From IMG/VR virus record IMGVR_UViG_3300015261_000151, positions 1 through 30,322 of that record: 30,322 nucleotides of DNA. One strand, written 5' to 3'. Positions 1-3,929 of this stretch are shown here, piece after piece. Made by a program: the position numbers and the translations under genes. Source of the DNA: a virus. Under the pieces are notes generated by a model that searched no databases, was not told where the DNA came from, and saw nothing but the letters and a program-made list of their open reading frames with translations. Position 1 is the stretch's first letter; each line of letters begins with the position of its first letter.

Positions 1-1794
1 ATGTCTAAAATACAAGATCAGTTGTCAAAAATGGCTTCAGCTAAGCAGTTTGAGCCATTCATCACGCATATCCGTTTCCCGAAATATAAAAATTTAGTTC
101 CCGACACTCGAATTGAATTTTCGCACCCTATAACTGTATTAGTTGGCGCGAACGGAACAAACAAAAGTTCTATCTTGCGCGCGCTATACGGCGTTCCCGA
201 TCACTCCAACTTAGGAGCTCTATGGTTCTCAACTTCCATCGATCCAATTGAGGAGGGTGAAGGGGAACGTAATTGTTTCATATATGGGCACTTCAACGAA
301 GACGCAAAAAGAGTGACGGAATATCTAAAGATAAGGATCAAGAAGGATAATGATCCTGATTACTGGGAACCGTCACGTCCGTTGGCTAAGTACAATATGG
401 AGATGGTTCCCCGTGCCGGTGCCAGGCCTCCGGGAGCACGGGGGACACGGTGGAATCCAATTAAAAAAGGGATGACTTACGTTGACTTTCGATCATCATT
501 AAGTGCTTTTGATAAATTCTTCTATCACGGTGAACTGCGTGATAAGAGTAATTCGCTCAAGGGCAAGAAGGAGCTCATACGATCGCGGGCTCCTCACCTT
601 AAGCGCGCAGCAGATAGTGGTGATAAATTTATCCAATGGCATGCGAAAGAACGCATTGTGAATGGCGAAAATTATCTTTTGGAAGCTGCGGAGCTCAGCG
701 CCGTCTCTGAGATACTAGGGCGTCAATACAGCGAAATCAGACTTCTGAGGCATAGGTTTTATAATAATGACGGATACACTGCTCGGATGCGTACTGCGGA
801 TTTCAGTTATACGGAAGCTTTCGCGGGCAGCGGTGAATTCTCGATAATTAAACTCGTTACTACGGTGATGAGATGTGCGCCTTGTTCCCTTATTTTGCTT
901 GATGAGCCTGAGGTCTCATTGCACCCAGGCGCGCAAGAAAGACTTATGGATTTTCTCGGGCAGGAGACAAAAATACATAAGCATCAAATTATCATTTCGA
1001 CGCATTCACCGGCGCTTGTTCAGACACTCCCACCTGAAGCTATAAAGGTGCTGGCAATGGATCCGGCCACTGGAAAAATTGGCGTTGTACGCCAAGATGC
1101 TTTGCCTGAGGAAGCGTTTTTCCACCTAGGCGCTCCAGTTTTAGGAAAAGTGCGCGTAGTCGTCGAAGACCGATTGGCAAAAGCAATAGTTGAGAAAAGC
1201 CTGCGGGCACGTGGACAAGCGATTTTTAACTTGTTCGATATCGTATACTATCCAGGTGGGTGCAAGACGCTCTGGGCATTTTACATACCGATATTTGCAG
1301 CGGAAAACCGTGATGATATCGTAGTTTTTTTGGACGGAGACCAGAAACCTTCCGAAGAGAATGAATTTCCTCTCCCAGATACCATTGCGCGCGCGGATGA
1401 AAATAAGTTGGACTCCATTATTAAGGCCGCCACGGGTGTGAAAGTCATTTTTCCTGTCGATGGAAATGATGGCGGGGGGAATAATGAGCAACGTGTTCAT
1501 GCTCAGCGCCAGTTTATTACGTGGTCAAAATCTCGCGTAGGGTTTATGCCCGACACTACTCCTGAACGGTTTGTATGGGAGAGGGCTCCCGAAATTTCGA
1601 AGCGCGGTATTCAGGGTGATGATTACAAAAAGAATTTTGCTTCGCTCGCACGTATGGAACTTGGATTAGCCGATTTCGAGGAAGTTACAGGCGACAACAT
1701 TTTGTACACCCAGCGTCGATTGTTATCCCTCATTGACGATGCTGAAGTTGGGTTAGTACAATTGCGGGAAGAATTACATAGTTTTGTCCAGTAG
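1..1794 (+). CDS. AAA ATPase fused to TOPRIM domain (OLD/PARIS-like)
   Basis: This 597-residue protein carries an ABC-type AAA ATPase followed by a TOPRIM nuclease-like domain. Visible motifs are Walker A GANGTNKSS (residues 49-57), an ABC-signature-like GSGEF near 276-280, Walker B ILLDEPEVSLHPG with D301-E302, and the switch histidine in STHSP (H335). The TOPRIM part shows E389 in VVVED and D445-x-D447 in FLDGD. In OLD nucleases and in the fused AriA-AriB form of PARIS, this ATPase-TOPRIM layout senses phage and cleaves nucleic acid. I infer a defence role; I cannot tell the two families apart from motifs alone. The ATG is at base 1, so the ribosome site and any upstream extension lie outside the window. 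The DNA is clearly AT-richer than the phage genes downstream. The methyltransferase gene begins 12 bp after the stop. Confidence 0.8.
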   Translation: MSKIQDQLSKMASAKQFEPFITHIRFPKYKNLVPDTRIEFSHPITVLVGANGTNKSSILRALYGVPDHSNLGALWFSTSIDPIEEGEGERNCFIYGHFNEDAKRVTEYLKIRIKKDNDPDYWEPSRPLAKYNMEMVPRAGARPPGARGTRWNPIKKGMTYVDFRSSLSAFDKFFYHGELRDKSNSLKGKKELIRSRAPHLKRAADSGDKFIQWHAKERIVNGENYLLEAAELSAVSEILGRQYSEIRLLRHRFYNNDGYTARMRTADFSYTEAFAGSGEFSIIKLVTTVMRCAPCSLILLDEPEVSLHPGAQERLMDFLGQETKIHKHQIIISTHSPALVQTLPPEAIKVLAMDPATGKIGVVRQDALPEEAFFHLGAPVLGKVRVVVEDRLAKAIVEKSLRARGQAIFNLFDIVYYPGGCKTLWAFYIPIFAAENRDDIVVFLDGDQKPSEENEFPLPDTIARADENKLDSIIKAATGVKVIFPVDGNDGGGNNEQRVHAQRQFITWSKSRVGFMPDTTPERFVWERAPEISKRGIQGDDYKKNFASLARMELGLADFEEVTGDNILYTQRRLLSLIDDAEVGLVQLREELHSFVQ

Positions 1795-1806
1795 ATTGGG
1801 TTCAAT

Positions 1807-2835
1807 GTGATCAAAGTTTTCGATTTTTTTTCGGGTTGTGGAGGAACCAGCTCGGGCTTTAGTCAAGCCGGAATGGAGGTGGTTATGGGGCTCGATATCG
1901 ACTCCGACGCCGCAGATTCGTTCCGAGCAAATTTTCCTACAGCGAGTTTTTTTTTAAACGATATCCGCGAGCTGGATGCCGATGTGCTGGCACCAATTAT
2001 TGGCGAGCGTGAGTCTCCACTTCTCTTCTGTGGCTGTGCGCCTTGCCAACCATTTTCGAAGCAAAATCAGCACCAAGATAAGAAAGATCCGCGTCGTGAC
2101 TTATTGAGCGAATTTTCCCGGTTTGTTGAGCGCTGGCTACCGGAGTACGTATTTATCGAAAACGTTCCCGGTTTGCAAAAAATAAAGGGAAACAACGGTC
2201 CTTTTCGAAAATTTGTTCGCTTGCTATCTGACCTAGGATACTCACAAGCCTCGGATATTATTTCAGCGATGTCCTATGGAGTTCCACAAACTAGGAAAAG
2301 ACTTGTACTACTCGCTCAGCGACACGGTTCAGCCTCCCTTCCACCTATTACCCACGGTACAAATGGGCGGCCCCATGCAACCGTGCGTGATGCAATCGGG
2401 CATTTACCACCACTTCAGGCGGGTGCGACTCATCCAACAGATCCACATCATCAAGCTGCGGCTCTGTCAGACATGAATTTTTTGCGAATCTCTCATACTC
2501 CAGAAGGTGGAGGGAGAGAATCTTGGCCCGACGAGCTTCGGCTCGAATGTCATCGCGATCACGACGGGCATTCGGATGTTTACGGACGCCTTGCTTGGGA
2601 TAAACTGGCATCGGGCTTGACTACTCGATGCATAAGCTATTCGAACGGAAGATTTGGGCATCCTGAGCAGAATAGAGCACTTAGCGTTCGTGAAACGGCA
2701 TTGATTCAGACATTCCCACCTGGGTATCATTTTTCAGGAAATTTGGCTTCCCGAGCGCGTCAGATTGGTAACGCCGTCCCGCCAGCGATGGCGTTGGCAG
2801 TCGCTCGCCACATTTTGTCGGGAGTTGTTCCATGA
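1807..2835 (+). CDS. DNA (cytosine-5-)-methyltransferase
   Basis: This is a complete C5-methyltransferase of 342 residues, which transfers a methyl group from S-adenosylmethionine to cytosine in DNA. The conserved motifs are in order: motif I DFFSGCGGTSSGF at the N-terminus, motif IV APCQPFS with catalytic C80, motif VI ENVPG (E118), motif VIII QTRKRLVLLA, and motif X RQIGNAVPP near the C-terminus. The target-recognition region lies between VIII and X, so the recognised site cannot be read from sequence. The start is GTG at 1807. Pairing with the OLD-like ATPase, and the same AT-rich composition, suggest one defence or modification unit in which the enzyme may mark self DNA; no cognate restriction enzyme is visible. 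Its stop overlaps another ATG (ATGA), suggesting a third coupled gene. Confidence 0.93.
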   Translation: MIKVFDFFSGCGGTSSGFSQAGMEVVMGLDIDSDAADSFRANFPTASFFLNDIRELDADVLAPIIGERESPLLFCGCAPCQPFSKQNQHQDKKDPRRDLLSEFSRFVERWLPEYVFIENVPGLQKIKGNNGPFRKFVRLLSDLGYSQASDIISAMSYGVPQTRKRLVLLAQRHGSASLPPITHGTNGRPHATVRDAIGHLPPLQAGATHPTDPHHQAAALSDMNFLRISHTPEGGGRESWPDELRLECHRDHDGHSDVYGRLAWDKLASGLTTRCISYSNGRFGHPEQNRALSVRETALIQTFPPGYHFSGNLASRARQIGNAVPPAMALAVARHILSGVVP

Positions 2836-2927
2836 GGGAAATTATTTACATAATCGGCATGGTTGGTTGTTCATCTCGTTGGGTTCACCTTTTCGCCCAC
2901 CCGACGATAGATACGTTTGGTTATTGA
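2832..2927 (+). pseudogene. 5' stub of a third defence-operon gene cut by prophage end
   Basis: An ATG at 2832 overlaps the methyltransferase stop in the form ATGA, the classical sign of translational coupling. The frame encodes about 13 plausible hydrophobic residues (MREIIYIIGMVGC...) and then runs antisense into the 3' end of the integrase gene, ending at a TGA at 2925. Only the part before about 2870 can be native to the operon; the rest is phage sequence read in the wrong sense. I infer that the prophage inserted into this gene and that its body lies beyond the other prophage end. A chance ATG is the alternative. The product cannot be identified. Confidence 0.35.
2836..2870. other. probable prophage attachment site region (attL or attR)
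   Basis: This is the only non-coding stretch between the AT-rich flank and the 3' end of the integrase gene, which in lambda-like phages abuts the attachment site. Composition changes here from AT-rich to GC-rich. No tRNA 3' end is recognisable. The core could extend into the last codons of the integrase gene. The duplicate copy lies outside the window, so the exact core is unknown. Confidence 0.35.
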
Positions 2928-3929
2928 AGTGTTTGTGTGACCGAGCAGCTTACTCGCGTCGTCGAGGCTTTCAATTTCGCTAGCGGCTTTTGGTCTTATA
3001 TCGCGGAACTGGAAGGCTTTAATGCGTTGGGCGAGGTCCAGAGCGCCGGCCGTTTCAGCCTCTGCGGATGCCGTTGCGCGTGCCTTCTCAAACCTGTCGC
3101 GCAGCATCTTCGCGGTGAGGTGCGTGCCGTTTGACGTACACACCAAGTGGCCGCTCATGCACTGTACTGGCCGGCCCTTCAACCGTTCGATGAACAGCCC
3201 GAGATCGGTGAGCCCGGCGGCATTTCGAAGTTGGATGCGCAGCTTCTGGCCGCGTTTGCCTTGTGTCACCATCAACTCGTCACCGCGCACGTGCTCCTTG
3301 CCCATCTTGATGACGTCAGCTGGCCGCTGGCCGGTCAGGTAGTTCAGGTCCATCGCATCTTGCAACTCGATCACGCCGGCATCGTAGACGGCATTCCATA
3401 CGTCGGCCTCTGCATAATAGTCGCGAGGAACCTCTTTGTTTTTGCGAACCCCGGTACATGGGTTTTCGTTGGTCGTGTAGCCCCATTCCCTAGCCAGATT
3501 GTAGATCGCCGACAGCACAGCGATCTCGCGATTCGCGCGGACCTTAGCGGTACGCGCGTCCCGGTACCGGGCGATATCGGACGGCTTGATGGCGCTGATA
3601 GGGGCGGTGGCGAAGGCGCCGCGCAGCTGCCTTATGCACTTCATATACTCCGCCTGCGTGCGGACCCCGAGCCCGGGTAGCACCTGCTTGACGTACTGAT
3701 CGATCGCATACCCCACCAGCGTAGCATCAGCCGGCGGCGGCGTGCCCTCAAGCTCGGCCCACTTGCGCTTCGCCGCCTGCAGGTCGGTGCCGAGCGGAAT
3801 CTCTTGGCGCTCGCCCGTTGCGCTGCGGCCGTTGTAGTAGTAGCCGACCCATACCTTGCCCGACGCCAGCTTACGGCGCCGTGCCAGCATGCGAGGGGGG
3901 AGTTTCATTCCTGTTGTCTTAGGACGCAT
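2871..3929 (-). CDS. int: phage integrase (tyrosine recombinase)
   Basis: This 352-residue tyrosine recombinase integrates and excises the prophage. Catalytic residues are readable: R202 in LTGQRPAD, a lysine in the beta hairpin (QGKRGQK, K225 or K229), box II as FRDIRPKAA (R309 and R312, with Arg where many enzymes have His), H331 in LLGHT and the nucleophile Y341. The N-terminal arm-binding region holds KVWVGYYYNG, and a SAM-like core-binding domain spans roughly residues 70-165. The RxxR form of box II is common in this phage integrase group. It is the last gene of the leftward operon, 3 bp after the DUF4224 gene, and its 3' end points to the presumed attachment site. Confidence 0.93.
   Translation of the reverse strand: MRPKTTGMKLPPRMLARRRKLASGKVWVGYYYNGRSATGERQEIPLGTDLQAAKRKWAELEGTPPPADATLVGYAIDQYVKQVLPGLGVRTQAEYMKCIRQLRGAFATAPISAIKPSDIARYRDARTAKVRANREIAVLSAIYNLAREWGYTTNENPCTGVRKNKEVPRDYYAEADVWNAVYDAGVIELQDAMDLNYLTGQRPADVIKMGKEHVRGDELMVTQGKRGQKLRIQLRNAAGLTDLGLFIERLKGRPVQCMSGHLVCTSNGTHLTAKMLRDRFEKARATASAEAETAGALDLAQRIKAFQFRDIRPKAASEIESLDDASKLLGHTNTSITKRIYRRVGEKVNPTR

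Follow-up and report, generated by a model that had tools for sequence, protein, structure and literature searches.

How OLD-family nucleases tell self from foreign DNA is an open question, and for Gabija a passage of a 2025 paper states that the discrimination of self from non-self remains unknown (PMC12407980). The window analyzed here—IMG/VR virus record IMGVR_UViG_3300015261_000151, positions 1–30,322, the whole 30,322-nucleotide stretch—opens with an OLD-family ATPase-TOPRIM gene and a C5 cytosine DNA methyltransferase gene, both facing the integrase of a prophage. Is this pair what is left of a host defense operon that the prophage interrupted, or a complete unit that the prophage carries, and how might its two proteins act together? 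For one lineage, an OLD branch that nearly always has a C5 methyltransferase beside it, the discrimination problem gains a testable answer, namely methylation as the self-mark.

The first gene (1–1794, plus strand) encodes 597 amino acids, and its designation as an ATPase-TOPRIM protein in an earlier sequence-only reading is borne out by Pfam matches to AAA_21 (1e-18) and AAA_15 and, for the TOPRIM part, which has no Pfam match of its own, by invariant residues and a model match to the class 1 OLD protein of Thermus scotoductus (TsOLD). Walker A (G49xNGxxKSS), the signature (275-AGSGE-279), Walker B (D301 and E302) and the H-loop (H335) are invariant across 28 aligned sequences, and the TOPRIM residues E389, D445, D447, E522, and K543 are present in 28 of 28 homologues. 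The first three of these correspond to TsOLD E377, D431, and D433; with the catalytic equivalents of TsOLD and BpOLD as a guide (PMC6755086, PMC7049728), order and context make E522 and K543 the probable counterparts of TsOLD E480 and R487 (BpOLD E508 and K562). At E+4, the metal-B acid (TsOLD D381) is replaced by Ala393 in the window's ATPase, and an invariant Asp beside E389 might stand in for it. Using the AF2 model (mean pLDDT 89), Foldseek ranks TsOLD (6P74) first at E = 1.7e-13, as does a PDB profile search; since global TM-scores are 0.35–0.39 with large rmsd, the match is one of domain architecture and not of overall arrangement.

The methyltransferase begins 12 bp later, as the sequence-only reading had it, with a GTG start (1807–2835, plus strand; 342 aa), and is identified by Pfam DNA_methylase (4e-58), by NCBIfam dcm, and by alignment. 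Its catalytic C80 and motifs I, IV, VI, VIII, and X are intact. At 47.5% GC against 61.2%, the lower GC of the pair is consistent with cargo. The window opens on the first base of the ATPase ATG, and so exact a start makes it probable that the record was cut back to a gene boundary.

Whether the operon continued into a third gene turns on an ATG at 2832 that overlaps the methyltransferase stop (ATGA, 2832–2835) and opens a 31-codon frame (2832–2927, plus strand), antisense to the 3′ end of the integrase. The overlap is real; the gene that had been proposed to start there, and to be cut at the prophage junction, is not supported. An equally long open frame is expected in random sequence of the same composition with a chance of ∼39%, so the window itself offers no argument for a third gene, and an overlapping downstream frame is absent from the relatives examined, including Duganella radicis, G207, G285, G206, G595, and G368. 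Intact homologous loci, which the same reading had proposed to look for, were found to end with the methyltransferase, and no conserved third neighbor accompanies the two genes across a set of 61 loci (described below). We thus rejected the third gene on both counts, chance length and lack of a counterpart in relatives, and regard the frame as spurious. A HEPN nuclease as the missing third gene was likewise rejected, as no HEPN family recurs next to the pair; the idea had come from more distant plasmid C5 methyltransferases that adjoin MAE_28990 HEPN genes.

If the pair is complete, where does the prophage end? The tyrosine integrase (2871–3929, minus strand; Pfam Phage_integrase) was compared with relatives from two sources: viral contigs, and the family group around D. 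radicis, in which 15 of 295 genomes had one. Two viral contigs, L013 and L014, carry integrases 95% identical to that of the window. Between L014 and the window, 22,770 bases of 2871–30322 align at 73–95% identity, compared with 0 of the 2,870 bases of the pair, and the alignment starts at 2871, the integrase stop codon. Because sibling homology ends exactly there, we read the pair as cargo of the prophage, whose junction with the host would then lie beyond the left end of the record. L014 fills the position of the pair with a 145-aa ORF to which no function is assigned, and in L013 the position is empty, with an inverted repeat and tRNA-Ser directly after the integrase (tRNA-Ser at 140 bp). 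These fillings—nothing, a small ORF, and the OLD/methyltransferase pair—amount to one slot with three contents among siblings. The 35 bp that separate the stops of the convergent methyltransferase and integrase genes (2836–2870) are accordingly the integrase-side edge of the slot and not an attachment site, and the junction that had been placed within 2836–2875 is ruled out by the sibling comparison.

The wider integrase family has the same anatomy. In 13 of the 15 genome relatives (integrase identity 54–65%), tRNA-Ser(TGA) lies downstream of the integrase stop in a fixed orientation; the two exceptions are L133, which sits at tRNA-Leu, and L132, whose site is ambiguous. The distance from stop to tRNA is 65–186 bp in eight genomes and 1.1–1.9 kb, with cargo, in five, and the long intervals are filled mostly with lower-GC genes (a 230-aa ORF, a two-gene unit, a Tae4-like gene, and others). 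In 14 near-relative loci a near-perfect inverted repeat, TTGCGGAAA..TTTCCGCAA, precedes the tRNA motif by 95–131 bp. Loci without cargo have it 9–12 bp past the integrase stop (63 bp in L127), and in L129, L130, L137, and L025 the cargo comes first, such that cargo always falls between integrase and repeat. By these comparisons, the interval between integrase and attL is the apparent cargo slot of a tRNA-Ser(TGA) prophage family. Neither the repeat nor the tRNA-Ser motif occurs within the window's 2.87 kb past the integrase, and we infer an attL further left than the record reaches.

These observations bear directly on the alternative that a prophage integrated into a host defense operon and cut its third gene. 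Such an event would account for an ATG that overlaps the methyltransferase stop and for a frame that runs antisense into the integrase, and the pair does occur on chromosomes outside prophages (in D. radicis, after gyrB); with integrase siblings that insert at tRNA-Ser, sibling homology that ends at the integrase stop codon, copies of the pair elsewhere that lack a third gene, and a frame of chance length, we consider it extremely improbable. Nor is the proposal that the prophage disabled a host defense, or brought a partial one, supported: homologous loci end with the methyltransferase, and the sibling prophages place the attachment site outside 2836–2875.

The slot itself holds varied cargo in other members of the family (L014, L019, L020, L025, L026, L129, L130, L132, L135, L136, and L137): a DUF4062 protein, a DUF4325 protein with a GHKL-like gene, a Tae4-like gene, two-gene units, and unassigned ORFs. 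Among ten of these cargo proteins PADLOC matched none, and the gap between integrase and attL in this prophage family is worth mining for defense and conflict genes. The inverted repeat was also considered as a universal att arm. This holds only in part, for a more distant integrase subgroup (L056, L071, L077, L078, L079, and L134) has the repeat past the tRNA-Ser gene, where it could be an att arm, a terminator, or a host feature.

Is the association of the two genes more than a single event? When viral contigs were searched with a single ATPase or a single methyltransferase sequence, neither query gave a match; an alignment of the ATPase alone returned 51 contigs, which with nine genomes and the window make up the 61 loci (39 clusters at 85% identity). 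A C5 methyltransferase is adjacent to the ATPase in 59 of these, and as the search used the ATPase only, this adjacency was not built into the query. Gene order varies: the genes run in the same direction with the ATPase first in 43 loci, converge in 10, and have the methyltransferase first in six. Both exceptions have particulars of their own, with one contig (L165) that stops right after the ATPase and another (L169) in which the methyltransferase is 4.6 kb off, within a convergent GHKL/receiver operon. Other neighbors vary by lineage, the upstream gene being HTH repressor-like in several, and a profile of the window's integrase, whose reach stops short of unrelated integrases, found no adjoining integrase at the other pair loci save weak matches in two. 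Remote plasmid relatives of the ATPase (∼31% identity over 29–38% of the length), which fall outside the family as defined here, are mostly without an adjacent methyltransferase.

ATPase and methyltransferase distances correlate overall (r = 0.74, a value reached by 0 of 5,000 permutations), and motifs IV, VI, and X are kept in all methyltransferases found. At the convergent groups, the branching of the methyltransferases disagrees with that of the ATPases, a sign that the methyltransferase partner was replaced and adjacency retained; since several forks have weak support, the number of such swaps was left uncounted. In L194 the ATPase is broken by a frame change and the methyltransferase is whole (L193 has similar breaks, which could be sequencing errors), and the reverse case, a broken methyltransferase with a whole ATPase, was not seen in the loci collected. 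This direction is the one expected for restriction-modification (R-M), albeit with tiny numbers.

Might the two genes nonetheless be unrelated phage morons that came to lie side by side by chance, one an orphan C5 methyltransferase with a regulatory role and the other a class 1 OLD gene in its own right? Orphan C5 methyltransferases are common. Class 1 OLD proteins, for their part, are single genes (PMC10568477). Against this, adjacency in 59 of 61 loci, over that many clusters and in three gene orders, makes a chance neighborhood highly improbable.

Copies outside this prophage family support the same two-gene unit. Specifically, a search of the genome collection gave one close homologue, in D. 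radicis (76% identity over the whole ATPase), where the pair stands downstream of gyrB with 11 bp between its genes and is succeeded by ∼200 bp without a long ORF and then by a separate EcoRII-type set. G207 has the pair at the same gyrB site without that set and with an opposite-strand transposase-like gene next. In G285, G206, G595, and G368 the ATPase precedes the methyltransferase by 7–14 bp, and the flanks of G595 and G368, read from translations, look like ordinary chromosome (ubiD-like; pyrB/pyrC-like); in G042 the order is reversed. The pair is further present, at 99% identity or more, in 32 of 5,426 complete Escherichia coli genomes. Two of these copies were examined and lie in Rac-like prophage regions, annotated as “ATP-dependent nuclease” and “DNA cytosine methyltransferase.” A joined-flank search for the empty site in E. 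coli Rac-like prophages gave no record that reached 80% coverage, and the Rac prophage of K-12 is without the stretch concerned.

Two of these settings merit a remark of their own. The position downstream of gyrB looks like a small defense hotspot (D. radicis and G207); the EcoRII-type set of D. radicis, directly after the pair (L012:11044–15682), consists of a C5 methyltransferase with DNA_meth_N, Vsr, and EcoRII-C. In E. coli, a tractable species, the pair sits between a hok/gef gene and DUF977 (L199:9001–11894 and L200:9001–11894).

To which known system, if any, does the pair belong? The sequence-only reading had described a defense-like operon that matches no named system, and this description stands: no PADLOC model fits the ATPase over its full length (with only partial matches to GajA), NCBIfam defense models score far below their cut-offs against it, and the pair recurs widely. 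The PADLOC comparison, which had been suggested at the outset, gives HEC-04 as the best match of the ATPase and its homologues (E 1e-29 to 1e-37), with the ATPase likewise fused to TOPRIM; no more than about half of the profile is matched (best stretch 157–394 of 494), and HEC-04 is described as one protein whereas the ATPase of the window's type travels with a C5 methyltransferase. Both HEC-04 and IbfA have reported anti-phage activity. Class 1 OLD proteins (TsOLD, 6P74; P2 Old) provide the top PDB match and share the metal-A triad and the basic catalytic residue, and P2 Old is likewise carried as prophage cargo, but these are single genes as opposed to a gene with a near-constant methyltransferase partner, and the metal-B acid at E+4 is Ala here. 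Gabija resembles the pair in having two genes, one of them (GajA) an OLD ATPase-TOPRIM, and differs in that the partner GajB is a UvrD/Rep-like helicase, while here the partner is a methyltransferase and the window's pair is flanked by an integrase.

Other systems share less. PARIS also couples an OLD-type ATPase to a TOPRIM nuclease, although as AriA and AriB without a methyltransferase partner, whereas ATPase and TOPRIM are fused here and a methyltransferase is added; AriA matches are confined to the ATPase core. Retron OLDs (class 3) have a reverse transcriptase and an ncRNA as neighbors; at the loci collected the only conserved neighbor is the methyltransferase, and the window's view of its own pair stops at the ATPase start. 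Type II R-M systems, similarly, place a nuclease gene beside a C5 methyltransferase in several orders, and the window's methyltransferase matches PADLOC MTase_II over its full length; the nuclease here is instead an ATP-binding OLD/TOPRIM protein and not PD-(D/E)XK, HNH, or similar, and its cleavage at an unmethylated site is a prediction. On our best reading, the pair has its kin in HEC-04, class 1 OLD, and Gabija but shares its layout with none of them.

With its nuclease site intact and almost never without a neighboring C5 methyltransferase, the OLD protein is most simply read as half of an R-M-like pair in which the ABC ATPase gates cleavage. We consider it probable, with real room for doubt, that the window carries an apparently complete defense cassette, housed in the integrase–attL slot of a prophage that inserts at tRNA-Ser(TGA), with attL off the record's left end, and that this cassette acts in an R-M-like manner. 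In such a cassette the C5 methyltransferase would mark the lysogen's own DNA, the OLD ATPase-TOPRIM would cleave DNA without the mark in an ATP-gated manner, and the cleavage would protect the lysogen from other phages. Nuclease activity, its dependence on methylation, and an anti-phage effect are what we infer from conserved residues and gene arrangement.

Methylation may not be the self-mark, since class 1 OLD proteins work without a partner and neither Gabija nor PARIS includes a methyltransferase. The same cassette could, for instance, hold the OLD protein as an abortive-infection guard that senses interference with the methyltransferase or with host restriction and then degrades nucleic acid, the methyltransferase serving as bait or antitoxin. 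PARIS, which senses Ocr, is an analogous guard; in one account OLD-ABC proteins sense phage and serve as backup suicidal effectors (PMC12839542); and IbfA, an ATPase-TOPRIM homologue of HEC-04 reported without a methyltransferase partner, works by abortive infection (PMC12111858). A guard that watches over methylation in general would likewise fit the apparent swaps of methyltransferase partner. Near-constant adjacency in varied gene orders, by comparison, is typical of R-M pairs, and we regard the guard as possible but rather unlikely.

Returning to the R-M-like reading, the OLD classes described so far are single-gene, helicase-linked, and retron-linked (PMC10568477); the literature searched yielded no class linked to a methyltransferase. 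PMC12839542 mentions an earlier report (its reference 52) of OLD-ABC ATPases that are coupled with nucleases in RM-like systems, so that we make no claim to be first with the pairing. For the broader proposal—that this OLD branch is the ATP-gated restriction subunit of a C5 R-M-like system, largely dispersed by prophages and swapping both methyltransferase and gene order, and so a further OLD class defined by its modification enzyme—we find the balance about even.

Two other arrangements came to light among the loci collected. On plasmids (L006, L009, and L011), more distant C5 methyltransferases lie beside MAE_28990/MAE_18760 HEPN-like nuclease and DUF262 genes, which is another methyltransferase-linked conflict layout. 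In L169 (7779–13448), the OLD ATPase is convergent to an operon of a C5 methyltransferase, a GHKL/HEF_HK protein, and a Response_reg_2 protein; this operon resembles a MORC-type R-M system and is possibly a shared or alternative partner.
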